This document shows positions 41,864-56,512 of a stretch of DNA of 64,000 nt, in pieces. Below the pieces are notes generated by a model. That model saw only the letters and a program-made list of their open reading frames with translations. It was not told the origin of the DNA and did no database searches. A program made the translations under genes and the position numbers. Numbering within the stretch: position 1 is the stretch's first letter; the number at the start of each line of letters is the position of its first letter. This DNA comes from Gemmatimonadaceae bacterium (GTDB lineage: Bacteria > Gemmatimonadota > Gemmatimonadetes > Gemmatimonadales > Gemmatimonadaceae): NCBI GenBank assembly GCA_035533755.1, contig DATLTC010000067.1, positions 62,001-126,000 of the forward strand. Direction: 5' to 3'.

Positions 41864-43810
41864 CTACCGCTTCACCACCGAGATCTGCACCTCCGAGGGG
41901 TACATCGCCGAGTGGTGCACCGCGTTGTGCGCCACGAGCCCCGTGGCCTCGTCGTAGTTGTGCCCGCCGGTATTCAGATTGCGGTCGAACCGCGGGAAGT
42001 TGCTGCTCGACACCTCCAGGCGAATGCGGTGGCCCGCGGGAAAGTAGTTGCTCGTGTTCATGGGGCTCAACGCCACCTTGTACACCTTGCCCGGCTGCAT
42101 CCACACTTGCTTGTCGTACCCCTCGCGATAGCGCACGCGCTGGATGGTCTCGTCCAGGTTGTACGCCGTGCCGTCGGGATACACGTCGATCAGCTTCACC
42201 GTGAAGTCGGTGTCCTTGCGATCCGACGACACGTACAGCGTGACCTCGATCGGCCCGCTGACCTCGGTGTTCTCGGCGAGCGGATCGGTGCTGTACACCA
42301 GGATGTCGTTGCGCGCTTCCATCTTGCGCTGGTCGAACGCGCCGCCCTGCACCGCGTTGCCCGTGCAGCACACGTTGCCGCCGTACGACGGCACCGGGTT
42401 CATCGGATCGTACACGAAGCCGTCCGGCCGGTCGGCCGCCGGCGCCTTGGCCACCAGGCGGCCGTCGCCGTTGAGCGAGTTCGCGGCGCCGCCGCTGGCC
42501 AGGTAGTACGTCTCCATCCGCGCGCCGCGCGGCGGCCAGGTATCCGACGTCTGCCACTTGTTGAGCCCCATCGTGAAGTAGCGCACCCGGGGCAGCGTGT
42601 CGAGCAACCCGTTGTTCTCTCCCTTCAGGAAATGGTCGAACCAGCCGTAGGTGAGCGCGTCGTAGTCCAGGCGCGCGTCGCCCATGTTCCGCTCGCCCAC
42701 CACGGTCTGGGCCGTGGCGCGCTTGTAGCTGCAGTGGAGCGTGGGGGCGATCACCGCGTACTGCTCCCGGGCCACGGCGGGAGACGCCACCTGCTGGGCG
42801 TGGTGGAACATCGCCAGGTTCGGCCCGATCGACACGTCGTACCACGACATGAAGTACAGCGCCGGCACGTTGAACGGCATGTTGTCGTGATAGAGCCCGC
42901 CCTTGTACCATGCCGGATCGTTGGGCGCGCGCTCGATCATCGCGCCGCCGGTGGGCACCGGCATCGTGTCGGCGAAGATCCCGCGCGGACCGTCCACCGC
43001 CTTGATGATGTCCATCTCGGGCAGATGCCAGAGCGCCTTGGCCCAGTCCACGAGCGGGGGCTGCTGCGCCAGATCGAACGCGCGCGACGCCTGGATCAGA
43101 TCGTGGGCCGACGTGCCGGCCGGGAACATCGGCCGCACCTGATTCTGCTCGCCGTACAGCCAGGCGATGAACAGCATCTGCACCGCGCCGCCGCGATACC
43201 AGTTGCCCTGCTCGAAGTACGGCGCCACCCGCCCCACGCCGGCGCCGAAGCCCTGCGGATTGATCGCCGCCAGCGCCGGGTTCCCCACCGACGCCACGCC
43301 CATCTGCCACTCCGCCGTGGACGAGCAGCCCACCAGCCCCACCTTGCCGTTGGACCATGGCTGGTTCGCGATCCACGAGATCGCGTCGTCGCCGTCGGTG
43401 AGCGGCGGGCCGAGGATGTCGTAGTTGCCCTCGGAGAAGAAGTGCCCGCGCTCATTCTGCTCCACGTACGCGTAGCCGCGTTTCACCGCGTCGTACACGG
43501 CCGTCATGTCGCTCGGCGCCCCGAGTTTCACGTCCCAGTAGTTGAAGTTGTACGGCGTGCGCACGAAGATCGTGCCCACGCGCCCGCCGTCCTTCGGCAC
43601 GTAGACGTCGGTGGCCAGACGCGTGCCGTCGCGCATCGGCACCATGAGCTTGCGGTGGATGGTCGCGATCGATTCGAGCGCCTGCTCGGTCTTCTGGCGC
43701 TGCGCGATCAGCGCCGTGTTGGGATTGGCCTGCGCGCGCAGGACGAGCGGGCACGCGAACAACAGCGCGCCGGCCGCCGCGAATGCCGCGAGGCGCATGG
43801 GTTTCCGCAT
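41864..43810 (-). CDS. CocE/NonD family hydrolase (X-Pro dipeptidyl-peptidase S15-like), exported
   Basis: 648 residues from the ATG at 43810 (GGAG eight nt upstream). Signal peptide ([20 protein letters not shown]) first. The alpha/beta hydrolase domain has [20 protein letters not shown], the oxyanion-side motif TPYNFNYW and [13 protein letters not shown] with the G-x-S nucleophile; the C-terminal jelly-roll has [20 protein letters not shown] and ends with [19 protein letters not shown], both typical of the family. Members cleave X-Pro peptides, glutaryl-amides or esters. Periplasmic peptide degradation alongside the prolyl oligopeptidase is plausible. Confidence 0.92.
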
Positions 43811-43949
43811 GGGGGGTGCTCCAGGATCTGGACGTGGGGTGTCGCGAGCCCGGCCGGGAATGCGCGAGCTCGCCGCCCAGGATCATGCGCGCCGAACCAC
43901 GGTCCCGCCAGCGCCGGGCGCGAACGGCGCCGCCTCGCCATCTTCAAGG

Positions 43950-45809
43950 ATGACCGCTACCACCGCCGGCGTCGTCTCCTTCTATAGGAACAGCGCCGCC
44001 ACGCTCCGCGCCCGTCGCGCCGTCCAATCGCGCCTCGTCGATCGCCTGGGTAACGGCCGCCTCGCCGCCTTCGGCCTCGCGCTCCTGCTCGCGGCCCGAT
44101 GGGCCACCGCGTCCGGTGGGCGGACTGCCTGGCTCGCCGCCGCGATCGCCGTCACCCTGGGGTTCGTGGCGCTCGTCTGGTGGAGCAACCGCGCCAAGGC
44201 GGAGCTCCAACGCACCGACGATCTCGTCACGCTCGCCGACGAGGGCGCCCACCGCGCCGCGCGCCACTGGAGCGAACTCCCCGTGCGCGACTGGGAGCCG
44301 GCGCCCGCGTCCCATCCGTACGCCGTGGACCTCGACCTGTTCGGCACAGCCTCGCTGGCTCAGCTGCTGCCGCCCATGAGCTCGGCGCCGGGACGCACCA
44401 CGCTCCGCTCATGGCTCGTGGCGCCCGCCGCGCCGGCCGTGGTCGAGGAGCGCCAACTCGCCGTGGCGGAGCTGGCGCGGGATTCCGCCTTCCGCGACGA
44501 ACTCGCGCGGCGCGGCATGCGCATCACGTCATCGGCCCAGTCGCTGGCCGAGCTCGAGGCGTGGGCGCGGAGCGACGGATGGCTGCGTGGGCGCCCCGGG
44601 CTGCTCGCGGCGACGATCGCCATTCCGTGCGCCACGCTGGGACTGGCGGCCGCGCAGCTCGCCGGCGCCGTGGCCCACTCGTACTGGATCGCGCCCGCGC
44701 TCATCGGCTGGGCGCTCACCGCGCGCCACGGCAAGGCATTCGCCGGGAGCTTCGCGCCCGTGGTGGGACGCTCCAACACGCTCCGCCGCTACGCGCAGAT
44801 GGCGCACCTGGTGAGCGAGACGCGGTTCACCGGGCCCGCGCTCACCGGCCTCCAGGCGCGCCTCGCCGCGGGACCGCGGCCCGCGCACGCGAGCATGCGC
44901 GCCCTCACCGCGCTCGCCGACTGCAGCGAGTTGCGGCTGTCGCCCATGCTCTACGTGATCGTGAACACGCTCACCCTCTGGGATTTTCACGTGGTCCACC
45001 TGCTGGAGCGGTGGCAGAAGGCGTCGGGCCGCCACGTGGGCCAGTGGCTGGGGGCACTCGGCGAGATCGAGAGCTTGTCGGCGCTGGCCACCGTGGCCCA
45101 CGACAATCCCGACTGGACCTTCCCGCGCCTCGACGCCGGCGCGCCGGTGATCCTCGAGGCCAGGGCGCTGGGGCATCCGCTCCTGTCCGACGACGAAGGG
45201 GTGCGCAACGACGTGACGGTGGGCCCGGCCGGCACCATCCTCGTGGTCACCGGCTCCAATATGGCGGGCAAGAGCACGCTGCTGCGATCGATCGGCCTCA
45301 ACCTGGTGCTCAGCCAGGCGGGCTCCGTGGTCTGCGCGCGCGAGCTGCGGCATCCGCCGGCGATCCTGCACACGAGCATGCGGGTGCAGGATTCGCTGGC
45401 CCGCGGCGTGAGCTACTTCATGGCCGAGCTGGAGCGGCTCAAGTCGGTGGTCGACGCCGCCGACGCCGTGCCGCCGCAGGCCCCGCGCGTGCTGGTGTAC
45501 CTGCTGGACGAGATCCTCCACGGCACCAATTCGGCCGAGCGCACGATCGCGGCCCGCCACGTGCTCACCCATCTCGCGGCCAGCGGAGCCATCGGCGCCG
45601 TCTCCACGCACGACCTGCAGCTGGTGGACGTGCCCGAACTCGCCGCGGTGGCCCGGCACGTGCACTTCCAGGAGACGTTCTCGCGGACGGATGGGGTGGC
45701 ATCCATGAGCTTCGACTACCGGCTGCGCCCCGGCAAAGCCACCTCGAGTAACGCCCTCAAGCTCCTGGAACTGGTCGGGCTTCTTGTGCCACCATATGAC
45801 AACAGTTGA
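43950..45809 (+). CDS. Membrane-anchored MutS-like ATPase lacking mismatch-recognition domains
   Basis: About 619 residues (start at ATG 43950 is uncertain; no well-spaced ribosome site). Two hydrophobic pairs are visible near the N-terminus (GLALLLAARWATASG and AWLAAAIAVTLGFVALVWW) and another at about 220-255. A core-like helical region follows, then the MutS ATPase: Walker A GSNMAGKSTLLRSIG (about 435-449), VQDSLARGVSYFMAELERLK, Walker B VLVYLLDEILHGTNSAER and STHDLQLVD. Domains I-III of true MutS (including the F-x-E mismatch reader) are absent. This subgroup is widespread but its role is unknown; mismatch repair should not be assumed. The stop codon lies inside the -35 box of the next promoter. 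Confidence 0.88.
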   Translation: MTATTAGVVSFYRNSAATLRARRAVQSRLVDRLGNGRLAAFGLALLLAARWATASGGRTAWLAAAIAVTLGFVALVWWSNRAKAELQRTDDLVTLADEGAHRAARHWSELPVRDWEPAPASHPYAVDLDLFGTASLAQLLPPMSSAPGRTTLRSWLVAPAAPAVVEERQLAVAELARDSAFRDELARRGMRITSSAQSLAELEAWARSDGWLRGRPGLLAATIAIPCATLGLAAAQLAGAVAHSYWIAPALIGWALTARHGKAFAGSFAPVVGRSNTLRRYAQMAHLVSETRFTGPALTGLQARLAAGPRPAHASMRALTALADCSELRLSPMLYVIVNTLTLWDFHVVHLLERWQKASGRHVGQWLGALGEIESLSALATVAHDNPDWTFPRLDAGAPVILEARALGHPLLSDDEGVRNDVTVGPAGTILVVTGSNMAGKSTLLRSIGLNLVLSQAGSVVCARELRHPPAILHTSMRVQDSLARGVSYFMAELERLKSVVDAADAVPPQAPRVLVYLLDEILHGTNSAERTIAARHVLTHLAASGAIGAVSTHDLQLVDVPELAAVARHVHFQETFSRTDGVASMSFDYRLRPGKATSSNALKLLELVGLLVPPYDNS

Positions 45810-45845
45810 CAATCGGGTCTATTCGAGGCCATAATTCTCTCGAAT
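45806..45845 (+). promoter_or_regulatory. Promoter and dyad operator of the HTH-EIIA / Ehr-like operon
   Basis: TTGACA (45806-45811, a perfect -35) and CATAAT (45830-45835) are 18 nt apart. A perfect 7-bp inverted repeat ATTCGAG (45821-45827) and CTCGAAT (45839-45845) with an 11-nt centre lies exactly over the -10 box and the expected start site. A protein bound there would block RNA polymerase. The downstream genes encode HTH proteins that could be the binders. The -35 box contains the TGA stop of the MutS-like gene. Confidence 0.6.
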
Positions 45846-45852
45846 CTGTCCA

Positions 45853-46569
45853 TTGGTTGCCACGCTGACCGACCTGCTCAGCCCCAAACAGCTCGCCGAA
45901 TATCTCCAGCTTTCCCAGCGCACCGTGTACCGGCTGCTGGAGCGCGGAGACCTGCCCGCCGTGAAGGTGGGCGGCCAGTGGCGCTTTCGAAAAGCCATCG
46001 TGGACGAGTGGCTCGACGTCAACATGCAGCGCCTGGACACCGCGTCGCTGCATGCCCTGGAGAGCGACGACGAATCGGGCCCCCGCGCCCTCAGCATTGC
46101 CGGTCTGATCGCGTCCGGCAATGCGCGCATCGACGTTCCGGCCGGTTCGCGCGACGGGGTCGTGCGCGCGTTCCTGGGTGAGGTGAGCTTTCCGGAGCCG
46201 GTGTCGGTGGACCTCGTGTGCGAGCGGGTGCTGGAGCGCGAGCGGCTGTGCAGCACGGCGGCGTCGGGAGGGGTGGCGCTGCTGCACACCCCGCGCAGCC
46301 GCCCGCGCGTGCTCAACGCCCACGACCTCGTGGCCATCGGACGCATCCAGTCACCGGTGGACTTCGGCGCCCTCGACGGGACGCCCACGCACACGCTCAT
46401 CCTGCTGCTCGCGCGGAGCGAGCGCGACCAGTTGGCGCTGCTCGCCAAGCTCACGCGGCTCTGCCAGGAGCCCGGCTTCCTGGCCCAGCTGCACGACACA
46501 CGCACCGCCGATGACGTGATCGCGCTGGTGCGCGCGACCGAATCCCGCATCTTCGTCTCCACCCACTGA
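45853..46569 (+). CDS. Excisionase-type HTH fused to a PTS EIIA-like domain (regulator 1)
   Basis: 238 residues from a TTG at 45853, the only start that keeps the whole domain and follows the promoter. The N-terminal 60 residues are a MerR/excisionase-type winged HTH: LLSPKQLAEYLQLSQRTVYR and KVGGQWRFRKAIVDEWL. After a linker there is an EIIA-2/PtsN-like domain (about 90-235). The position of the phosphorylated His is kept (His 145 in VALLHTPRS), though the usual GSTGIG segment before it has drifted to CSTAASGG. EIIA-Ntr proteins sense phosphoryl flow and regulate by protein contact; here the domain is fused to a DNA-binding module. It is the first gene of the cluster and probably controls it. 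Confidence 0.85.
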   Translation: MVATLTDLLSPKQLAEYLQLSQRTVYRLLERGDLPAVKVGGQWRFRKAIVDEWLDVNMQRLDTASLHALESDDESGPRALSIAGLIASGNARIDVPAGSRDGVVRAFLGEVSFPEPVSVDLVCERVLERERLCSTAASGGVALLHTPRSRPRVLNAHDLVAIGRIQSPVDFGALDGTPTHTLILLLARSERDQLALLAKLTRLCQEPGFLAQLHDTRTADDVIALVRATESRIFVSTH

Positions 46570-46589
46570 CGGCTCCCGTTCACCCCGCC

Positions 46590-47285
46590 ATGCAACTCAC
46601 GCTTCGCCAGGTCGCGTCGTACCTCGACGTCCCGGACTCCACGGTGCGCCACTGGATCACCAGTCGCGACCTGCCGGCGCACCGGGTGAACGAGCGTCTG
46701 TACTGCAACGCGATCGAACTCTGGGAGTGGGCGGTGGAGCACGGCGTCCCGGTGTCGAAGAGTCTGCTGGAGCAGGCGCAGCGCGCGCCCGACGCCGTGC
46801 CCCCGCTGTCCACGCTGATCGCCGAAGGGGGCGTGCACCGCGACGTGCCCGGCGCGACCAAGGCCGAGGTGCTGCGCCAAGTGGTCGCGCGGCTTCCGCT
46901 GCCCGACGATGTGGACCGCGAGTTCCTGATCAGCGTGCTCGAGGCCCGCGAGGCCATGGGCTCCACGGGCATCGGCGACGGCATCGCCATTCCGCACGTC
47001 CGCAATCCGATTCTCCTGCACGTGGCGCGCTCGTTCGTGGCCGCGTGCCTGCTCACGCATCCCGTGGAGTTCGACGCCGTGGACGGCAAGCCCGTCCACG
47101 CGCTGTTCCTCGTGGTGAGTGCCACGGTGCCGGCGCACCTGCGCATTCTCGCGCAACTCGGCTACACGCTGCGCGACCCCGAGCTGCGGCGCCTGCTCAG
47201 CACGGCCGCGCCCACGGCGGCCATTCTCGAGCGGATCGCCGCCGTCGAGGCGTCCACGTCCACGCCGTCGCGCGCCAACGGATGA
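46590..47285 (+). CDS. HTH fused to a PTS EIIA-Ntr-like domain (regulator 2)
   Basis: 231 residues, starting 20 nt after regulator 1. The HTH is LTLRQVASYLDVPDSTVRHW followed by DLPAHRVNERLYCNAIELWE. The EIIA domain is better conserved than in regulator 1: EAREAMGSTGIGDGIAIPHV has the canonical segment and the phosphorylatable His 136. The two are clearly paralogous in layout but diverged. One may respond to phosphorylation and the other not, which is an inference from the degree of motif conservation. A membrane complex operon starts 4 nt downstream, so regulation of that complex is the simplest reading. Confidence 0.87.
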   Translation: MQLTLRQVASYLDVPDSTVRHWITSRDLPAHRVNERLYCNAIELWEWAVEHGVPVSKSLLEQAQRAPDAVPPLSTLIAEGGVHRDVPGATKAEVLRQVVARLPLPDDVDREFLISVLEAREAMGSTGIGDGIAIPHVRNPILLHVARSFVAACLLTHPVEFDAVDGKPVHALFLVVSATVPAHLRILAQLGYTLRDPELRRLLSTAAPTAAILERIAAVEASTSTPSRANG

Positions 47286-47289
47286 CCCC

Positions 47290-49290
47290 GTGATCGCGCT
47301 CGGAATCGCCGCCGCGTGCTGGACGCTGGGCGCGGGCGCCGCACTCGCCTTCCGGCGCCGCGCGATCGGCGCATCGCTCGGAGCGGCCGGCGCCGTGGTC
47401 GGTGGCGTGGCCGCGGCCGAAGCCGCGGTGCGCGCGCTCGGCGCGCCGGCGGGGCTGCACTGGTCCATGCCATGGAGCGTGCCCGGCGGCGCCGTCGCGC
47501 TCCGGCTGGATGCGCTGGCCGCGGCGTTCCTGCTCCCCGTGGCCGTGGTGGGCGCCGCGTGCGCCCTCTATGGCGTGGCCTACCTGCGCCACCACGCCGG
47601 CCGTGGCCACGGCGGCGCGTCGATGGCCGCCTACAATCTGCTGCTGCTGGCGATGGCGCTCGTGGTCACAGCCGACAACCTGGTGCTGCTCATCGTGGCG
47701 TGGGAGCTGATGACGCTCAGCTCGTGGGCGCTGGTGGTGAGCGATCACGATCAACGGTCGGTGCGCGCCGCGGGGCTGCAGTACCTCGTGGCCGGCCACC
47801 TGGCAACGGCCGCGCTGCTGCTGTTCGCCCTCCTGTTCGCCACCGCCACCGGCGGCTACGCCATCGCGCCGCTGGGCCCCGCAACCACGGCGAACGCCGG
47901 CCTGCTGTTCACGCTCGCCCTGATCGGCTTCGGCACCAAGGCCGGCCTCGTCCCGCTGCACGTCTGGCTCCCCGACGCGCATCCCGCGGCCCCATCGCAC
48001 GCGTCGGCGCTCATGTCGGCGGTGATGATCACGATGGGGTTCTACGGATTGGCGCGATTCATCCCGCTGCTTGGCGCGCCGGCGCTCTGGTGGGCGTACA
48101 CGCTGATGGGATTGGGCGCGGTGGGCGCGGTGGCCGGCATCGCCTTCTCCATCGCGCAGCGCGATGTGAAGCGCGCGCTCGCATATTCCACCGTCGAGAA
48201 TGCCGGTCTCGTGGCCCTCGCCATGGGGGTCGGCGTGCTGGCCACGGTGCTGCACCGCCCGGTGCTGGCCGGGCTCGCGTGGGGCGCCGCGCTGCTCCAT
48301 CTGTGGAATCACGCGCTGGCCAAGAGCCTGCTCTTTCTGGGATTCGGCGCCGCGGCGCAGCGCGCGGGCAGCCGCGACCTCGACGCGATGGGCGGCCTGC
48401 TGGCCCGATGGCCGGTGGTGGGCGGCACGCTCGTGCTCGGCGCCGCGGCCATCGCGTCGCTGCCGGGGCTCAACGTGTTCACCAGCGAATGGCTGTTGTT
48501 GCGCGCGCTGCTGGCCGGCGCGCTCGACCTCAGCGGCGTGAACCGGATCGCGCTCCTGGGCGGGATCCTCGCCGTGGCGTTCACGGGCGCGCTCGCGGCG
48601 GCCGCGTTCGCGCGCCTGGTCGGCGTGGGACTGCTTGGAACGCCGCGCACCGCGGGCGCGGCCAACGCCGCGCCCCCCGAACGCGCCATGCGCCTGCCGA
48701 TCGTCGCCCTCGGCGCCGGCTGCGTGCTCGTGGCCGCGATGCCCCATCTCGCGCTGGGCGCGCTCGCGCCCGCCGTGCGCGTGGTGGCGCCGGCGGCCGA
48801 CCTCGGCGCCGCGGAGGCCATGCTCCGGCCCATCGCGCTGCTGCTCCCGCTGCTCGCCGCGATCGTCCTCCTCACGCTCGGCCTGCGCGCCGTGGCCACG
48901 CGCCGAGCGATGGCGCGCCGCGGGCCCACGTGGGGATGCGGCTACCCCGCGCCCACGGCCGCGATGCAGTACACGTCCACCTCGTTCGGCGGGGCGCTCA
49001 CCAACGTCCTGCAACCGCTGCTCCACGTCGAGACGCGGCGCCAGATGGTTGCCCGCCAACTCCCCATCACCGGAGAGCGCGCGGTGTGGCCGCTGTCGGC
49101 GTCGTGGGCGTCGTCCACCGCCGACCGCGTACTGGAGCGACTCTACACGCCGGCGTTCGCGAGCATCGCGCGCGCCGCGCAGCGGCTGCGTTCCCTGCAC
49201 CGCGCGCGCGTGACCACGTCGCTGGTCTACATGGTCGTGGTGGTGGTCGTGCTGTTGGGCCTGCTCGTGCTGCCCGGACTCAACCGATGA
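47290..49290 (+). CDS. Antiporter-like membrane subunit, HyfB/NuoL type (first copy)
   Basis: 666 residues from a GTG 4 nt after regulator 2. About 16 hydrophobic segments. The proton-channel residues of the family are present: the Glu in LIVAWELMTLSSW, the Lys in GFGTKAGLVPLHVWLPDAHP, the Lys in AQRDVKRALAYSTVENAG and the His/Lys of HLWNHALAKSLLFLG. Length and C-terminal extension match hydrogenase-4 component B (HyfB) rather than NuoL. It should pump protons or sodium ions as part of a membrane arm. A close relative follows immediately. Confidence 0.92.
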   Translation: MIALGIAAACWTLGAGAALAFRRRAIGASLGAAGAVVGGVAAAEAAVRALGAPAGLHWSMPWSVPGGAVALRLDALAAAFLLPVAVVGAACALYGVAYLRHHAGRGHGGASMAAYNLLLLAMALVVTADNLVLLIVAWELMTLSSWALVVSDHDQRSVRAAGLQYLVAGHLATAALLLFALLFATATGGYAIAPLGPATTANAGLLFTLALIGFGTKAGLVPLHVWLPDAHPAAPSHASALMSAVMITMGFYGLARFIPLLGAPALWWAYTLMGLGAVGAVAGIAFSIAQRDVKRALAYSTVENAGLVALAMGVGVLATVLHRPVLAGLAWGAALLHLWNHALAKSLLFLGFGAAAQRAGSRDLDAMGGLLARWPVVGGTLVLGAAAIASLPGLNVFTSEWLLLRALLAGALDLSGVNRIALLGGILAVAFTGALAAAAFARLVGVGLLGTPRTAGAANAAPPERAMRLPIVALGAGCVLVAAMPHLALGALAPAVRVVAPAADLGAAEAMLRPIALLLPLLAAIVLLTLGLRAVATRRAMARRGPTWGCGYPAPTAAMQYTSTSFGGALTNVLQPLLHVETRRQMVARQLPITGERAVWPLSASWASSTADRVLERLYTPAFASIARAAQRLRSLHRARVTTSLVYMVVVVVVLLGLLVLPGLNR

Positions 49291-51251
49291 TCCTCGTGAC
49301 GTTGAGCGTCGTGCTCATGCTCATCGCGGGCGTGGCGGCCGTGGCGCTCTCGGCGCGGCGGGCGCTGGCCGAACGCGTGTTCCGCACGTGCCTCGTGGCC
49401 GGCGCGATCGCGGGATTGGTGCCGGCCCTTCGCGTCCTTGGCGGGGGGACGGTGGCCGACGTGTCCGTGGCCTCGCACGTGCCGGGCGGCCCGTGGGTGT
49501 TCGGGCTGGACAGTGTGTCGGCGGTGTTCCTGCTCGCGGTGCTGTTGGCCGGATCGGCCAGCGCGTTCTACGGCGTGACGTACCTGCGGCGCGACGCATC
49601 GCGCCGCGGCGTGGCCGTGCCGCACCTGCTGATGACCATGCTCCTCGCCGCGATGACCCTCGTCGTGGTGGCGCGGGCGGCGGTGCCGTTCCTGATCGCG
49701 TGGGAAGCGATGGCGCTCACCTCGTACGCGCTCATCGTCACCGACCACGACCGCGCCGAGAACCGCCGGGCGGGCATGCTGTACCTGGTGGCCACGCACG
49801 CCGGCACGCTGGCGCTGTTCGCGCTGTTCGCGGTGTGGGGGTCGGGCGGGGGCGACCTGTCGTTCGGGTCGCTGGCGGCGCATCCCCCCGTGGGCCCGGC
49901 GCAGGCCGCCGTGCTCGTGGCGGCGCTCGTGGGGTTCGGGATGAAGGCCGGCGTCGTGCCCCTGCACTTCTGGCTGCCCGAGGCGCACGCCGCGGCGCCG
50001 TCGCATGTATCGGCCGTGATGTCGGGCGTGGTGATCAAGATGGGGATCTACGGCCTGATGCGCGTGGGCATGCTGCTCGGCGTGCTGCCCGCGTGGTGGG
50101 GGTGGCTGCTCCTCGCGCTGGGCGCCGCGTCCGGCGTGCTGGGCGTGTTGTGGGCGCTGGCGCAGCACGATCTCAAGCGACTGCTCGCGTTTCACAGCGT
50201 GGAGAACATCGGGATCATCCTGCTCGGGCTCGGCGCCGGATCGCTGGGCGTGACGTACGACCATCCGCTCGTGGCCGTACTTGGATTCGCCGGCGCGGCG
50301 CTGCACACCTTGAATCACGCGCTGTTCAAGTCCCTGCTCTTTCTGGCCGCCGGGTCGGTGGCGCATGCCACCGGTACGCGCGAGATCGACCGCTTGGGCG
50401 GCCTGGCTCGGCGGATGCCGCGCACGGCGATCGCGTTCCTGATCGGCTCGGCGGCGATCGTGGGCCTCCCGCCGTTGAACGGCTTCCTGAGCGAGTGGCT
50501 CGTCTTCCGTTCGCTGCTGCAAGCCGGCCTCACGCCCGAGTCCCTGCGCATGGCGGTGCTGGCCGTGGCCGCGCTGGGGCTGATCGGCGCGCTGGCGTTG
50601 GCCTGCTTCGCCAAGGTGATGGGCGTGGTATTTCTGGGATCGCCGCGCGACGCGGGCGTGGCCGCGGCGCACGAATCGACGCCCGGGATGATGCAGCCGA
50701 TGGCGTTCCTCGCCGCGGCCTGCGCCGCGATCGGGCTGCTGCCGGCGCTGGTGCTGCCGCCGCTGTTCCGCGTCGGCGCGCTCGTGGCCGGCGCGTCCCT
50801 GCCCGGCGTGTGGACACTGGGCGTCGACCCGGCCGTCCGCACCATCACCTGGTTCACGGTCGCGCTCGCGGCGGCGCTCGCCGCCGCATGGGCGGCGCGA
50901 TCGCGGCTGCAGCGCCGCCGCGCATCGCGCGCCGCGGATACGTGGGGTTGCGGCTTCTCGCCCGTCACGCCGCGCATGCAGTACACCGCGTCGTCCTTCG
51001 CCACGCCCGTACTCGACGCCTATCGCGCCGTGGCGGGCGTGCGCGTGCACCGCACGGCCACCTCGTTCGCCACGCACGCCGTGGACCCGGTGCTCGACGC
51101 CGTGGTGCTGCCGGTGTGGCACGGCGTGCAGTCCGCGGCGGGCAGGGTTCGCCCGCTCCAACGCGGCCGGCTATCGCTCTACCTGATCTACATCGTGGCC
51201 GCGCTGGTGGGCGTGCTGCTGTACCTCGTGCGCTGGGGACGGGCCTCATGA
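49287..51251 (+). CDS. Antiporter-like membrane subunit, HyfB/NuoL type (second copy)
   Basis: 654 residues; the ATG overlaps the previous stop (ATGA). It keeps the same key motifs: FLIAWEAMALTSYALIV, GFGMKAGVVPLHFWLPEAHA, AQHDLKRLLAFHSVENIG and HTLNHALFKSLLFLAAGSVA. The two copies share the WGCGF/Y...MQYT motif near the C-terminus (WGCGFSPVTPRMQYT here), typical of HyfB-like proteins, and so arose by duplication. Two consecutive HyfB-like genes plus a HyfF-like gene give three potential ion-translocating modules. Confidence 0.92.
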   Translation: MILVTLSVVLMLIAGVAAVALSARRALAERVFRTCLVAGAIAGLVPALRVLGGGTVADVSVASHVPGGPWVFGLDSVSAVFLLAVLLAGSASAFYGVTYLRRDASRRGVAVPHLLMTMLLAAMTLVVVARAAVPFLIAWEAMALTSYALIVTDHDRAENRRAGMLYLVATHAGTLALFALFAVWGSGGGDLSFGSLAAHPPVGPAQAAVLVAALVGFGMKAGVVPLHFWLPEAHAAAPSHVSAVMSGVVIKMGIYGLMRVGMLLGVLPAWWGWLLLALGAASGVLGVLWALAQHDLKRLLAFHSVENIGIILLGLGAGSLGVTYDHPLVAVLGFAGAALHTLNHALFKSLLFLAAGSVAHATGTREIDRLGGLARRMPRTAIAFLIGSAAIVGLPPLNGFLSEWLVFRSLLQAGLTPESLRMAVLAVAALGLIGALALACFAKVMGVVFLGSPRDAGVAAAHESTPGMMQPMAFLAAACAAIGLLPALVLPPLFRVGALVAGASLPGVWTLGVDPAVRTITWFTVALAAALAAAWAARSRLQRRRASRAADTWGCGFSPVTPRMQYTASSFATPVLDAYRAVAGVRVHRTATSFATHAVDPVLDAVVLPVWHGVQSAAGRVRPLQRGRLSLYLIYIVAALVGVLLYLVRWGRAS

Positions 51252-52171
51252 TGCCGGTGGTGGATCCGCGCGCGGTCGCCGCGCTGGCCGTGTTGCTGGT
51301 GCTGGCGCCGGCCCTGCCCGGCGTGGCCGTGAAGACCAAGTCGTGGCTCACCGGGCGGCGCGGCGCGCCCGTGCTGCAGCTCTACGCCGATCTCGCCAAG
51401 CTCGTCCGCAAGGGATCGGTGTACAGCACCACCAGCACGTGGGTATTCCGCGCCGGGCCGGTGGTGACCCTGGCAGCGCTCGTCGCCGCGGCGCTCTTCC
51501 TGCCGCTCGACGGCCGCCAGGCGCCGGCGCACTTTGCCGGCGATCTCGTGGCGTTCGCGGCGCTGCTCGCGTTGGCGCGGTTCGCGCTCGTCCTTGCCGG
51601 ACTCGACACCGGGTCGAGCTTCGAGGGCATGGGGGCCAGCCGTGAGGTCACGTTCGCCAGCTTCGCCGAGCCCACGCTCTTCCTGTGCTTCATCGCGCTC
51701 GTGCTCGCCACGGGGCATCTCTCCATGAGCGGCATGTTCGGCGCGCCCGTGGCCGCGGCGTGGGCCGGGGCCGCCGCGCCGCTCAGCCTGGTGGCGATCG
51801 CCCTGTTCGTGCTGCTCCTGGCCGAGAATTCGCGGGTGCCGGTGGACGATCCCGCCACGCACCTCGAGCTCACGATGATCCACGAGGTCATCGTCCTCGA
51901 CCACAGCGGCCCCGATCTGGCGCTGATCCTGTACGGCAGCGCGCTCAAGCTGGCGATCTTCGCGGCGTTGATCGTCGGGTTGGCCGTTCCGCGCGCCACG
52001 CGCTCGCTGCCCGAGGCGTTGCTGCTGCTCGCCGCCGGGCTCGTGGCGGTGGCCGTCGCTGTGGGCGTGGTGGAATCGGTGATGGCGCGGCTCCGGCTCA
52101 CGCGCGTCCCGCAACTGCTCGTCGGCGCCGGCGCGCTGGCGCTGTTCGGCATCATCCTCCTGCTCCGCTGA
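51248..52171 (+). CDS. Membrane subunit, HyfC/NuoH type
   Basis: 307 residues, overlapping the previous gene by 4 nt. Eight or so helices. Key family segments: VKTKSWLTGRRGAPVLQLYA and LVRKGSVYSTTSTWVF (the cytosolic loop that faces the quinone/hydrophilic arm), MGASREVTFASFAEP, and LLAENSRVPVDDPATHLELT with conserved acidic residues. This subunit connects the hydrophilic arm to the ion-pumping subunits in complex I and group 4 hydrogenases. All the motifs appear intact. Confidence 0.93.
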   Translation: MMPVVDPRAVAALAVLLVLAPALPGVAVKTKSWLTGRRGAPVLQLYADLAKLVRKGSVYSTTSTWVFRAGPVVTLAALVAAALFLPLDGRQAPAHFAGDLVAFAALLALARFALVLAGLDTGSSFEGMGASREVTFASFAEPTLFLCFIALVLATGHLSMSGMFGAPVAAAWAGAAAPLSLVAIALFVLLLAENSRVPVDDPATHLELTMIHEVIVLDHSGPDLALILYGSALKLAIFAALIVGLAVPRATRSLPEALLLLAAGLVAVAVAVGVVESVMARLRLTRVPQLLVGAGALALFGIILLLR

Positions 52172-52173
52172 CC

Positions 52174-52812
52174 ATGCAGACCGCCGCGCAGATCGTACTA
52201 CTCCTGGTGGTACTCACCGACTTCGCCGTGCTCGGCACGTCGCGGTTGCGCACGTGCATCCGCGCCCTCGCCGCGCAGGGCCTCCTGCTCGGCCTGCTGC
52301 CGATCGCGCTGGCGCCGCAGCTCACCATCCATGCCGTGACGCTGGCCGCCGGCACCGTGCTCGTGAAAGCCATCCTGCTGCCCTGGTTCCTGACCTGGGC
52401 CATTCGCGAAGCGGCGGTGCGCCGCGAGGTGGAGCCGGTGGTGGGCTTCATCGCCTCGCTGCTCCTCGGCGCGGCGGCGCTCGCCCTGGCGTTCGCGATC
52501 ACCGCGCGGCTGCCGCTCGCCGAGGTGCGCGAGCCGCTGCTCGTCCCCGTGGCGCTGGCCACCGTGATGATCGGCCTCATCGTGCTCACCACGCGGCGCA
52601 AGGCGCTCACCCAGGTGGTGGGCTACCTGATGCTCGAGAACGGGATCTACCTGTTCGGCCTCACGCAGATGGAGAGCGTGCCCTTCCTGCTCGAACTCGG
52701 CGTGCTGCTCGACGTATTCGCGGGCGTGTTCATCATGGGCATCGTCGTCTTCCATATCAACCGCGAATTCGACTCGCTCGACTCGGCGCGGCTCACGGAG
52801 CTCAAGGACTGA
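52174..52812 (+). CDS. Membrane subunit, HyfE type (NuoK-containing)
   Basis: 212 residues starting 2 nt after the HyfC-like stop. Six or seven helices; the C-terminal half contains the NuoK-like part, with the conserved Glu of YLMLENGIYLFGLTQ and another acidic site in LLELGVLLDVFAGVFIMGIV. HyfE-type proteins are found in hydrogenase-4 and Ehr complexes and combine NuoK-like helices with additional N-terminal helices. The assignment rests on size, position and the GYLMLENGIY motif. Confidence 0.88.
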   Translation: MQTAAQIVLLLVVLTDFAVLGTSRLRTCIRALAAQGLLLGLLPIALAPQLTIHAVTLAAGTVLVKAILLPWFLTWAIREAAVRREVEPVVGFIASLLLGAAALALAFAITARLPLAEVREPLLVPVALATVMIGLIVLTTRRKALTQVVGYLMLENGIYLFGLTQMESVPFLLELGVLLDVFAGVFIMGIVVFHINREFDSLDSARLTELKD

Positions 52813-54251
52813 TGCGCCTGATCGCGCTCTGCCTGCTGCCGGCGCTCATCGCCGCGATCACGATGGCCGCGCGGTCGCCGCGCGTGGGCCGCTGGCGAGT
52901 GGTCGCGCTGGTCGCCACGGCAGCCGCGCACCTGGCGCTCACGATCTCCCTCTGGGTGTCGCCGGCCGACGCGACGGTCAATGGGTGGTTCGGCGTTGAC
53001 GCCCTGGGCCTCCTCGTGCTGACCGTCATCAGCATCATCTTCTTCGCCACGGCCGTGTACACGGTGGGCTACCTGGCCCGCGAGACGCCCCGCGGCGGAC
53101 GCGCGTTCGTGGGCGGGCTGCTGGGATTCCTCTCCGCCACCACCATCGTCTGCGTCAGCCAACATCTCGCCATGCTCTGGGTGGGTATCGAGGCCACCAC
53201 CTTCTCCGTGGCCCCGCTCATCTATCACCGGCACGACCGCCGCTCGCTCGAGGCCGTGTGGAAGTATCTGCTCATCTCGTCGGTGGGCATCGCCCTCGCG
53301 CTCCTCGGCACGTTCTTCCTGGCCAGCGCGCAGCGCGATGCGCCCGGCGCGCCGCTCATCCTCGGCGACCTCATCGCCCACGCCCACGAACTCCAGCCCG
53401 CGTGGCTGCGCGCCGCGTTCCTCTTCCTGCTCGTCGGATTCGGCACCAAGATGGGGCTGGCGCCCATGCACACCTGGAAACCGGACACCTACGGCGAGGC
53501 GCCTGCGCTCGTCGGCGGCCTCATGGCCGGTGGGCTCACCAGCTGCGCGTTCCTTGGCGTGGCCCGCGTCACCGAGATCGCGATGGCGGCCGGCATGGCG
53601 CCGTTCATCCAGCCGGTGCTGCTCGGATTCGGACTCCTGTCGCTGGCCGTGGCCGCCGCGTTCGTGATCGGACAGCGCGACCTCAAGCGCCTGCTCGCCT
53701 ATTCGAGCGTGGAACACATGGGGCTGCTCGTGCTCGGGCTCGGGCTGGGCGGCGTGGGCGCGTACGGCACGGTGTTGCACCTGGTCAACAACGGCCTCTC
53801 CAAGGCGTGGCTCTTCCTCGTGACCGGTAACGTCGTGCTCGCCATGGGCACGTCGTCGGCGGCGCGTGTCCGCGGCCTCGTGCGCGCGCTCCCGGTGTCG
53901 GGCGTGCTGCTCGTGCTCGGACTGTTCGCCGTCACGGGGTCGCCGCCGTTCGGACTCTTCATCAGCGAGTTCACGATTCTCCGCGCCGCCGTGGCCGGCG
54001 GCCATCCGTGGATCGCCGCCGTGGTGCTGCTCCTGCTCGCGATCATCTTCGTGGGCATGGCCGCGCTGATCCTGGAGATGGCGCTCGGCGAGCCCGAGTC
54101 CCCCGTCCCACCGCAGCGGGAGAGCGCGTGGCTCCTCGCCGGCCCGATCGCGCTCGCCGCCGCCGTGCTCATGCTCGGCGTCTACATCCCGGCACCGCTG
54201 CAGCACGTGCTCGCGCAGGCCGCCGTGGCGCTGGGCGGGAGGACGCCGTGA
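52812..54251 (+). CDS. Antiporter-like membrane subunit, HyfF/NuoN-type
   Basis: 479 residues; the ATG shares one base with the previous stop. About 14 helices. The segments LAMLWVGIEATTFSVAPLIY (Glu), LLVGFGTKMGLAPMHTWKPD (Lys), GQRDLKRLLAYSSVEHMG and HLVNNGLSKAWLFLVTGNV hold the conserved channel residues. This is the third antiporter-like subunit of the operon. It lacks the long C-terminal amphipathic helix of NuoL, as expected for HyfF. Confidence 0.92.
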   Translation: MRLIALCLLPALIAAITMAARSPRVGRWRVVALVATAAAHLALTISLWVSPADATVNGWFGVDALGLLVLTVISIIFFATAVYTVGYLARETPRGGRAFVGGLLGFLSATTIVCVSQHLAMLWVGIEATTFSVAPLIYHRHDRRSLEAVWKYLLISSVGIALALLGTFFLASAQRDAPGAPLILGDLIAHAHELQPAWLRAAFLFLLVGFGTKMGLAPMHTWKPDTYGEAPALVGGLMAGGLTSCAFLGVARVTEIAMAAGMAPFIQPVLLGFGLLSLAVAAAFVIGQRDLKRLLAYSSVEHMGLLVLGLGLGGVGAYGTVLHLVNNGLSKAWLFLVTGNVVLAMGTSSAARVRGLVRALPVSGVLLVLGLFAVTGSPPFGLFISEFTILRAAVAGGHPWIAAVVLLLLAIIFVGMAALILEMALGEPESPVPPQRESAWLLAGPIALAAAVLMLGVYIPAPLQHVLAQAAVALGGRTP

Positions 54252-55759
54252 ACGCGTTCAACGAGATCGGGCTCCGCAACCGGCGCGCCGTGTCGCTCGC
54301 CTCGGTGCCCGTCGAACCGGTGGACGCCTGGCGCCGCACCGTGATCGACGCCGTGGCCGCCGAGTGGCGCATCGTGGCGTTGTTCGGCATGCCGGAGGCG
54401 GCCGACACCACGCGCCTCGTGGCCATCCTCGCCAACGACGCGCGCGGCGAGCTCGGCGCCACCACGGCCCTCGTGGGCGACCGCTATCCCGCGCTCACGC
54501 CCGACTGCCCGCAGGCCCACGCCTTCGAGCGCGAGATCGCCGAGCAGTGCGCCGTACTGCCCGAAGGCCATCCCTGGCTCAAGCCGCTGCGGCGCCACCT
54601 GCCCGACCATCGGCCGCCGGCGCGCAGCAACGTGGTGCTCGATCCCGCCGTGTATCCGTTCTTCCGCGTCGAGGGCGCCGAGGTGCACGAGGTGGCCGTG
54701 GGCCCCGTGCACGCGGGCATCATCGAGCCCGGCCATTTCCGATTCCAGGCGCACGCCGAGGAGGTGCTGTTCCTCGAGATCATGCTCGGGTATCAGCATC
54801 GCGGCGTCGAGCGCCTGCTCGAGTCGGCGCCGGCGGACCAGCGCATGCTGGTGGCCGAGTCGATCGCCGGCGATACCGTGATCGGACACGCCGGCGCGTA
54901 CTGCGGCGCGATCGAGGCCGTGTCCCGCTGCCGCAAGTCCCCGCGCGCGCAAGCCATTCGCGGCATCGCGCTCGAGATCGAGCGGCTGGCCAATCACATC
55001 GGCGACCTGGGTGCGATCGCCGGCGACGTGGCGTACCAACCGGCCGCCGCCTACTTCGGCCGCATGCGCGGCGAGTGCCTCAACCTGCTGATGCAGCTCT
55101 CGGGCAATCGCTACGGACGGGGCCTCATCCGCCCGGGCGGCGTGACGTTCGATCTGCCCGCCGACATGGCCGGCGAGATGCGCGCGCGCCTGGAGACGCT
55201 ACGCGACGAACTGGAGCCGGTGGCGGCGCTGATGTTCGAGACCGCCTCGGTGCAGGCGCGGCTCGAAGGCGTGGGCACGGTGTCGCGCGAGCAGTGCGTG
55301 GCGCTGGGTTTCGTGGGTCCGGTGGCGCGGGCCTGCGAGGTGGCGCGCGACGTGCGCCACGATCACCCCTACGGGATCTTCCGCTTCGCGCACATCCCCG
55401 TGGCCACCGGCTGGGCGGGCGACGTGCACGCCCGCGCGCTCGTGCGGTGGCACGAAGTGCGCCGGTCGCTCGAGTTCGTGCTCGAACAGCTGGCCGCCCT
55501 CCCCCGCGGCGAGGCCCGCGTGTCGTGCGGCGCTTCATACCCGGGCCAGCTGGCCGTGGCGCTGCAGGAAGGATGGCGCGGCGAGATTGCCCACGTGGTC
55601 ATCACCGGCGCCGACGGCGCGGTGCGCCGCCACAAGGTGGTCGATCCGTCGTTCCACAACTGGACCGCGGTGGCGGTGTCGCTGCCCGGCAACCAGATCT
55701 CCGACTTCCCGCTCTGCAACAAGAGCTTCAACCTCTCGTATGCCGGCCATGACCTCTAG
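54248..55759 (+). CDS. NuoCD/HyfG-like large subunit without nickel-ligand cysteines
   Basis: 503 residues from a GTG that overlaps the previous stop by 4 nt. Residues about 1-130 are NuoC-like; residues about 140-503 are the NuoD/hydrogenase large subunit fold: IIEPGHFRFQAHAEEVLFLE, MLGYQHRGVERLLE, RGIALEIERLANHIGDLGAI and SGNRYGRGLIRPGGV. Of the two C-x2-C motifs that bind Ni-Fe in hydrogenases, the first is replaced by ESIAGDT (Ala 207, Thr 210) and the second by DPSFHN (Ser 468, Asn 471). It therefore cannot hold a normal [NiFe] site. This is the defining trait of Ehr complexes. It may instead face a quinone or other acceptor. Confidence 0.92.
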   Translation: MNAFNEIGLRNRRAVSLASVPVEPVDAWRRTVIDAVAAEWRIVALFGMPEAADTTRLVAILANDARGELGATTALVGDRYPALTPDCPQAHAFEREIAEQCAVLPEGHPWLKPLRRHLPDHRPPARSNVVLDPAVYPFFRVEGAEVHEVAVGPVHAGIIEPGHFRFQAHAEEVLFLEIMLGYQHRGVERLLESAPADQRMLVAESIAGDTVIGHAGAYCGAIEAVSRCRKSPRAQAIRGIALEIERLANHIGDLGAIAGDVAYQPAAAYFGRMRGECLNLLMQLSGNRYGRGLIRPGGVTFDLPADMAGEMRARLETLRDELEPVAALMFETASVQARLEGVGTVSREQCVALGFVGPVARACEVARDVRHDHPYGIFRFAHIPVATGWAGDVHARALVRWHEVRRSLEFVLEQLAALPRGEARVSCGASYPGQLAVALQEGWRGEIAHVVITGADGAVRRHKVVDPSFHNWTAVAVSLPGNQISDFPLCNKSFNLSYAGHDL

Positions 55760-55792
55760 CCGAGCGCCGCGGGCGCTCCGGACGCACAGGCG

Positions 55793-56512
55793 ATGCTCGA
55801 CTTCCTGAAACAACGGATGCGCCAGGGCATGCGCACGTCGTCGTTCCCCGACGGCCCGGTGGACTTTCCCGAGCGCTTTCGCGGGCTCCCCGTGCTCGAT
55901 GCCACGCCCGGCGCGCCGCCGCTCGACGTGGGCGCCTGCCTGTTCAGTCCCGAGGAGGCGGGCGCGCGCCCCGAGGGCACGCTGACGTTCTCGCGCGACC
56001 ACCGCATGGCCGCGTCGTCGCGCCAGGCGCTCATCTCCCCCACCGGACAGGTGGAGCTGGCGCGCGCGCTCGACGCCGAGATGCAGCGCCTGTTCAAGCG
56101 GTCGCTGCGCCTGCGCTCGGTGGTGGCCGGAAGCTGCGGCGGCTGCGAGGCCGAACTCAACGCGCTCGGCAACGTGGTGTTCGATCTGGCGCGGTTCGGC
56201 GTGCAGTTCGTGGCGTCGCCGCGCCACGCCGACGGCCTCATCCTCACCGGAACCGTGAACCGCAACATGCTCGACGCCGTGCGCAAGACGTACGAGGCCA
56301 TGCCCAGCCCGCGCCTCGTCATCGCCGTGGGCGCGTGCGCCATCGCCGGCGGCCCATTCCGCGGCAGCGCGGAGATCGGATTCCCCAGCGACCTGCCCAT
56401 CGATCTCTACGTGCCCGGCTGTCCGCCGCACCCGCTCACCGTGCTCGACGGCCTGCTCCGCCTGCTCGGCCGCCTCCCCTCGCCTACCGGGCCTGCTTCC
56501 GCCGCCACATGA
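55793..56512 (+). CDS. NuoB/HyfI-like small subunit with one [4Fe-4S] site
   Basis: 239 residues. The C-terminal 140 residues carry the four ligands of the proximal cluster: Cys 115 and Cys 118 in AGSCGGCEAELN, Cys 182 in AVGACAIAGG and Cys 210 in VPGCPPHPLT. Spacing C-x2-C follows hydrogenase small subunits, not the adjacent CC of complex I. The first 100 residues (for example GACLFSPEEAG and SRDHRMAASSRQAL) align by eye with the end of an 8Fe ferredoxin domain as fused in other HyfI-like proteins, but only one Cys (49) remains. The gene is 33 nt after the HyfG-like stop and overlaps the end of the convergent DedA gene by 29 nt. Confidence 0.9.
   Translation: MLDFLKQRMRQGMRTSSFPDGPVDFPERFRGLPVLDATPGAPPLDVGACLFSPEEAGARPEGTLTFSRDHRMAASSRQALISPTGQVELARALDAEMQRLFKRSLRLRSVVAGSCGGCEAELNALGNVVFDLARFGVQFVASPRHADGLILTGTVNRNMLDAVRKTYEAMPSPRLVIAVGACAIAGGPFRGSAEIGFPSDLPIDLYVPGCPPHPLTVLDGLLRLLGRLPSPTGPASAAT

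Follow-up and report, generated by a model that had tools for sequence, protein, structure and literature searches.

A degenerate, cluster-stripped HyfH domain in an energy-converting-hydrogenase-related operon of the Gemmatimonadota

The operon and its large subunit

The stretch of DNA considered here, termed the window, is 64,000 nucleotides (nt) long and lies on contig 67 of a draft genome of 3.25 Mb; the named organisms closest to this genome are Gemmatimonadota. It contains an operon for an energy-converting-hydrogenase-related (Ehr) complex, in which seven plus-strand genes in the order HyfB1-HyfB2-HyfC-HyfE-HyfF-HyfG-HyfI (47290-56512) overlap by 1-4 nt or are separated by gaps of 2 and 33 nt. 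It is very likely that this is an Ehr complex and that the iron-sulfur clusters of its ferredoxin subunit HyfH, found here as a domain of HyfI, were lost secondarily. An earlier note on this DNA, made from the sequence alone, had described seven same-strand Hyf-like genes with overlaps or gaps of at most 33 nt. Pfam and NCBIfam agree with it, assigning the products in gene order to Proton_antipo_M/HyfB (twice), NADHdh (NuoH/HyfC), HyfE, HyfF, Complex1_49kDa and Oxidored_q6.

The note was right about these seven genes but missed two linked upstream genes, each of which encodes a fusion of a helix-turn-helix (HTH) domain with an EIIA domain of the phosphotransferase system (PTS). The two genes lie 20 nt apart, and the second is separated from HyfB1 by 4 nt. 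Because of these short gaps, and because a promoter-like sequence with 11/12 consensus matches precedes the first HTH-EIIA gene, the transcription unit probably comprises nine genes (45853-56512) starting at HTH-EIIA 1. The scan for sigma-70-like sites gave 3 matches in the region compared to 0.5 expected from shuffling, which makes this one a candidate promoter only.

Table 1. Coordinates of the operon and its features in the window
Feature	Position	Strand	Basis
Candidate sigma-70-like promoter, TTGACA-18-CATAAT, 11/12; precedes the first HTH-EIIA gene	45806..45835	+	Consensus scan
HTH_17 + PTS_EIIA_2 fusion protein 1 (HTH-EIIA 1), putative PTS-controlled regulator; His motif STAASGGVALLH retained	45853..46569	+	Pfam, motif
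HTH_17 + PTS_EIIA_2 fusion protein 2 (HTH-EIIA 2); EIIA His motif STGIGDGIAIPH	46590..47285	+	Pfam, motif
HyfB1, antiporter-like, GTG start, 666 aa	47290..49290	+	Pfam/NCBIfam
HyfB2, antiporter-like, 654 aa	49287..51251	+	Pfam/NCBIfam
HyfC, NuoH-like membrane subunit, 307 aa	51248..52171	+	Pfam
HyfE, NuoK/HyfE-like membrane subunit, 212 aa	52174..52812	+	Pfam/NCBIfam
HyfF, antiporter-like, 479 aa	52812..54251	+	Pfam/NCBIfam
HyfG (EhrL; NuoC-NuoD-like), GTG start, 503 aa, without Ni ligands	54248..55759	+	Pfam/NCBIfam, alignment
Former Ni-ligand motif L1 in HyfG, A207-G-D-T210 for HycE C241-G-I-C244	54866..54877	+	
HyfG C-terminus, C490-NKSFNLSYAGHDL: conserved Ehr motif and former Ni-ligand motif L2	55715..55759	+	Alignment
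HyfI (EhrS), fused degenerate HyfH domain and NuoB-like domain, 239 aa	55793..56512	+	
Degenerate HyfH (ferredoxin-subunit) domain of HyfI	55793..56047	+	HMM, PDB search, cysteine census
N2-type site, codons of HyfI C115, C118, C182 and C210	56135..56422	+	Alignment

Group 4 [NiFe] hydrogenases carry four cysteines at the NiFe site of the large subunit, and none of them is found in the HyfG of the window. In an alignment with Escherichia coli HycE, the Ni ligands C241, C244, C531 and C534 correspond to A207, T210, S497 and G500. As judged from this alignment, the complex is not a hydrogenase, since all four Ni-ligand cysteines are replaced; the note had reached the same view. In addition, HyfG stops at the L2 motif and has no C-terminal maturation tail. 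The absence of maturation genes was dropped as a further argument. Such genes are uninformative either way because the genome encodes HypD and one true [NiFe] large subunit on contig C56; the sole PF00374 match in the whole genome lies on a contig other than the window's.

Loss of the HyfH clusters among relatives

Relatives were collected by a profile search of genome contigs with a HyfG alignment, which found at least 575; the 80 kept for comparison are referred to below by L numbers. They come from Planctomycetota, Verrucomicrobiota, Geobacteraceae and other Thermodesulfobacteriota, Myxococcota, Acidobacteriota, Omnitrophota, Spirochaetota, Elusimicrobiota, Chloroflexota and others. Most are draft genomes with phylum names as given in their records, and oddities such as L054 (labelled Eisenbacteria) are possibly binning errors. 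In HyfG trees, the family forms one clade against HycE/HyfG with support of 99-100, and the clade containing the window has support of 97-100. The HyfG of the window clusters with relatives from Geobacter and Geomonas (L074, L076, L101), apart from true Hyc/Hyf. The window thus shows the marks of an Ehr complex, namely an operon of HyfB/C/E/F/G/I-like genes, no CxxC Ni motifs, and grouping with the Geobacteraceae Ehr.

About 110 residues precede the NuoB-like domain of the 239-residue HyfI, and residues 1 to about 85 are a remnant of HyfH. The HycF/HyfH family matches the first 36 residues (E 7e-4). A hidden Markov model (HMM) of 62 intact fused HyfH domains scores the window at 33.2 bits, compared to at most 3.4 bits for 200 shuffles and 84.7 bits for E. 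coli HycF. The sole match of this stretch in a PDB search is a weak one (E 0.07) to HycF of formate hydrogenlyase (FHL), while the intact HyfH domain of relatives matches chains HycF, MbhN, MbsN and NuoI among solved structures. This domain of relatives contains CxxxCxxCxxxCP and CxxCxxCxxxCP motifs, which Pfam scores as Fer4 domains. The window retains just one of the 8 [4Fe-4S] cysteines, with 7 lost, and its cluster core is partly deleted. With 1/8 ligands, the window has neither the HyfH part with two [4Fe-4S] clusters that is typical of Ehr relatives nor the cluster-bearing HyfH/HycF subunit of group 4 hydrogenases.

The N-terminal helix and FRG loop of the HyfH domain are nevertheless preserved. 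An AlphaFold2 model of HyfI (pLDDT, the predicted local distance difference test, 92) has this helix at residues 2-11, and all Foldseek matches listed for the model are NuoB-type chains. The FHL structure paper describes this helix, near the membrane surface, as common to all solved complex I-superfamily structures (PMC9474812). Because the homologous helix sits there, the N-terminal end of HyfH may likewise survive as a membrane-surface helix.

The fusion of HyfH to HyfI is family-wide, and most relatives have 8/8 cluster cysteines. Within the window clade, every scored member has 0-5 of the 8 ligands (14 of the 15 tree members could be scored), and a census of the phylum gives 22 degenerate HyfH domains (window included), 6 intact, and 1 partial with 4/8 on another branch. 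The cluster loss is derived, since relatives with 8/8 ligands (L043, L044, L086, L121, L097) branch around the window clade and true HyfH also has 8. At least 6 changes between the full and degenerate states are needed on the HyfG tree. In Omnitrophota (L055/L061), a separate lineage, all 8 ligands are lost and the core is deleted, with the same N-terminal helix-loop kept. Partial loss is found in L076/L120, L093, L118, L089, L100 and L112. Part of the cluster core is deleted in L156/L162, as in the window, whereas L035-L039 have lost the cysteines from a HyfH domain of near full length.

Sequencing or assembly errors were considered as a cause of the cysteine loss, since most of the genomes are drafts, but the chance of such an artefact is practically negligible: the degenerate motif GACLFSPEE and its variants are found in 22 genomes belonging to several genera and families, always in frame and amid conserved sequence. 

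The four N2-type ligands shared by the complex I superfamily (C115, C118, C182 and C210) are present in the HyfI of the window, and 4/4 are found in every relative covering them, one sequence being truncated at the end of its contig. Neither a NuoEFG gene nor a separate gene for HyfA, HyfH or NuoI was found in or beside the operon, whereas complex I would have NuoEFG or a separate NuoI linked to it. When the whole genome was searched with the intact HyfH domain, HyfI was the best match, followed by ferredoxin-like parts of other proteins and the NuoI of the complex I operon (C9); no stand-alone HyfH was found. A hidden donor operon encoding formate dehydrogenase, NuoEFG or carbon monoxide dehydrogenase was also considered, and none is conserved beside the operon in relatives. 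The genome does encode many ferredoxin-type domains, one of them in a 100-residue frame on C65.

These results bear on the earlier note in different ways. Its assignment to the Ehr type is borne out by the HyfG tree, and its single visible iron-sulfur site agrees with the one complete ligand set left, which is N2-type. It asked for a search for a distant HyfH/NuoI gene and held that a NuoEFG or ferredoxin module just outside the operon would speak against it; no donor module adjoins the operon, and the NuoI that the genome search matched is that of complex I. Its statement that there is no HyfH-like gene holds for a separate gene but overlooks the degenerate N-terminal domain of HyfI. Its "minimal" complex must be given up: by this comparison of sequences, the window complex is one in which the electron-input wire has been dismantled and the rest kept, not a minimal ancestor.

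Throughout the window clade and its relatives within the Gemmatimonadota, HyfG conserves E204, A207-G208-D209, H214, D466, D486, C490, N491 and K492; of these, D209, H214, D486, C490, N491 and K492 do not vary at all among clade members and those Gemmatimonadota relatives that are intact. In a few members of the wider set C490 is replaced by Asn. G208 occupies the aligned position of the quinone-site Tyr of NuoD (D-Y-L), and this Tyr is not conserved.

In ordinary Ehr HyfG (e.g. L074, L059), window positions 168, 270, 285, 490 and 499 are nearly always cysteine. None of the five is a Ni-ligand position, and they are a possible unrecognised cofactor site. The window clade keeps only C490, with one member also having 270. 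The HycE residues aligned with 168, 270, 285 and 499 are V, F, T and S, respectively. It is unsafe to read the missing cysteines at 270, 285 and 499 as losses; since HycE has none there, the other Ehr branch may have gained them. Of the four absences, only that of C168 sets the window clade apart, and the single distant relative L042 shares it. A statistical link between lack of the 270/285/499 trio and HyfH cluster loss was abandoned, as just 2 independent pairs are too few.

Two further large subunits were observed along the way. One Gemmatimonadaceae-family genome (L047, G112:C236:1-7325) has a second Hyf-like operon whose HyfG has all four Ni-ligand cysteines (CGVC, LCYSC) and is otherwise Ehr-like (GPIHAGIIEPGHFRF, FPLVNKSFELCYSC), and its fused HyfH-HyfI keeps 4/8 cluster cysteines; this enzyme is possibly a true hydrogenase near the Ehr branch. 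A Verrucomicrobia contig (L104:12269-19034) carries an Ehr operon and a second Hyf-like operon, the large subunit of the latter being without any CxxC.

Possible function of the complex

Nei-Gojobori ratios of nonsynonymous to synonymous substitution (dN/dS) in the window clade are 0.05-0.39 for HyfB2, HyfC, HyfE, HyfF, HyfG, the NuoB-like part of HyfI and the EIIA protein; these values are rough, as some pairs show strong divergence at synonymous sites. By this measure, the tested subunits are under purifying selection. The HyfH remnant gives 0.13-0.51, compared to 0.08-0.30 for intact HyfH in other lineages. In the membrane arm, HyfB2 retains the Glu of transmembrane helix 5 (TM5), the Lys of TM7 and TM8, and the Glu of TM12. 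The TM8 Lys of HyfB1 is replaced by Thr (VMITMG compared to VMIKMG) in the window, L029 and L031, and is kept in nearly all other HyfB copies where the TM8 motif was found.

An HTH-EIIA gene lies near the Ehr operon in 56 of the 69 loci with enough upstream flank and is the sole widely conserved neighbour. The genome has three EIIA type 2 domains, one in a stand-alone protein and two beside the operon, and its EI and HPr genes are adjacent to each other on C53. Linkage to the operon, a retained phosphorylatable His and the presence of EI and HPr make PTS control of the operon a putative feature. PMC9239096 and PMC3665714 tie the nitrogen-type PTS to K+ responses in other bacteria. The literature search found no publication that connects HTH-EIIA proteins to hydrogenase-like operons. 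As for other neighbours, a gene for a MutS domain V protein (43611-45809) lies directly upstream and is shared only by L030 among clade loci, and a SulP-type anion transporter gene, judged by eye from the sequence, is close to the Ehr operon in L035, L036, L037 and L041.

Electron input via HyfH presumably cannot work, and three modes of action come into view: gating, donation to N2 in trans, or small-molecule chemistry in the HyfG pocket. The best explanation overall, with a probability of roughly 0.45, is an Ehr complex in which HyfH was fused to HyfI, then stripped of both [4Fe-4S] clusters, and which is now a gated ion translocator. With the HyfH wire gone, the complex would no longer be a ferredoxin-driven pump. 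Instead, the redox state of N2 or ligand binding at N2/HyfG could shift the HyfC/HyfE coupling region, and this shift could gate movement of H+ (or Na+/K+) through HyfB1, HyfB2 and HyfF, as in a translocator or antiporter. The retained N-terminal helix and loop of HyfH may brace the soluble arm on the membrane, and the HTH-EIIA proteins may set expression by phosphate flow through EI and HPr. Gating in place of redox turnover is itself a tentative proposal, with odds somewhat below even. A broader evolutionary claim is more doubtful still: in Gemmatimonadota, and separately in Omnitrophota, an electron-driven pump would have become an ion transporter that is controlled by the nitrogen PTS and gated at its single N2-type cluster and the HyfG pocket, the ferredoxin wire having been dismantled and all parts downstream of it retained.

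Several observations weigh against gated ion translocation. The invariant N2 cysteines suggest that electron transfer, and not just gating, still matters, and because these ligands are constant the redox options stay alive. The HyfH domain evolves faster than the rest, which would also fit if a donor in trans had made this domain redundant and left it to decay, and one conserved Lys is lost in HyfB1. In the literature passages covered, no ion-transport or redox activity of Ehr complexes was found.

The main competitor is that the complex still carries out a net redox reaction: ferredoxin, flavodoxin or another soluble protein would dock at the former place of the HyfH clusters and reduce N2 directly, an acceptor (quinone, sulfur compound or other) would bind in the HyfG pocket, and ions would be pumped as in complex I. 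This has perhaps one chance in three. The invariant N2 cysteines and conserved HyfG pocket residues are consistent with it, as is a genome rich in ferredoxin-type domains (the C65 frame included), and the core deletion in the window and L156/L162 could open a path to N2. However, the clade has no linked donor gene, L035-L039 keep a near-full-length HyfH domain despite their cysteine loss, and HyfG has G208 in place of the quinone-site Tyr.

It is improbable, though conceivable, that both donor and acceptor are diffusible and react in the HyfG pocket next to N2, so that no protein wire is needed. The six invariant pocket residues would fit such chemistry, and among solved structures the membrane-bound sulfane sulfur reductase (MBS), itself related to group 4, carries the annotation of another reaction; but MBS retains an MbsN-type ferredoxin chain (6u8y_N, matched by the intact HyfH query), a candidate substrate is lacking, and the C-terminal pocket segment of HyfG is predicted at low confidence. 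Decay of the whole operon to a non-functional state is very unlikely: cysteines have been lost stepwise, the HyfH domain changes faster, and the operon is patchily present in the phylum (25/298 genomes by HyfG, 31/395 by HyfI), yet dN/dS is low in the tested subunits, HyfG frames are open across the clade, and the N2 cysteines and HyfG motifs are invariant.

Comparison with known systems

The window complex bears on two open questions, the function of Ehr and the way in which relatives of complex I use their soluble arm to drive ion transport. Together with its relatives it forms a natural series with 8, 7, 6, 5, 4, 2, 1 and 0 input-cluster ligands, all with N2 ligands and the HyfG pocket, which separates electron input from coupling. 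Features conserved in degenerate members do not need the two HyfH clusters, and Ehr function can persist without the wire. The HTH-EIIA linkage hints at a physiological context of PTS phosphate signalling, perhaps ion homeostasis.

In the passages covered, Ehr complexes are described as lacking Ni-site residues and as having an unknown or suspected function (PMC6349859, PMC10432482, PMC10284858), with coupling of redox to ion transport suspected (PMC6349859). These passages contain no mention of the HyfH-HyfI fusion, its cluster loss, or a PTS or ion-homeostasis context. The Ehr family is thus known, and the cluster-stripped variant appears without description in the literature covered, outside of which the founding Ehr papers fall. 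As named in the literature, the Geobacter sulfurreducens Ehr (GSU0739-0745) likewise has seven genes and the same kinds of subunits (PMC7894505, PMC13194489), and Ni ligands are absent from both. Its physiological role had not been investigated in one of these papers (PMC7894505), while the other regards Geobacter Ehr as already non-functional (PMC13194489). For the window clade, purifying selection argues against this view. Geomonas relatives have 8/8 [4Fe-4S] cysteines in the fused HyfH-HyfI compared to 1/8 in the window, and ordinary Ehr HyfG has cysteines at 168, 270, 285 and 499, all four of which are missing here.

E. coli formate hydrogenlyase and hydrogenase-4 (Hyc, Hyf; 7z0s) share HyfB, C, E, F, G, I and HyfH (a domain here) with the window, as well as the HycF-type N-terminal helix. 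Unlike them, the window complex has no NiFe site, HyfA/HycB, HyfD or HyfG maturation tail, and its HyfH is fused and cluster-free. Complex I (Nuo) of the same genome (C9) shares NuoB, C, D, H, K, L, M and N-like modules and the N2-type ligands, whereas the window has no NuoEFG or cluster-bearing NuoI, and the quinone-site Tyr of NuoD is not conserved. Pyrococcus MBS (6u8y) is also group 4-related with an annotated reaction other than hydrogen evolution, but keeps its MbsN-type chain, and its similarity to HyfG is moderate (E 2e-22). Mrp Na+/H+ antiporters have homologous antiporter-like subunits and are not known to have a soluble arm of the HyfG/HyfI (NuoD/NuoB-like) type, which the window does have. 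If no electrons flow, they would be the closest functional analogue of the complex.

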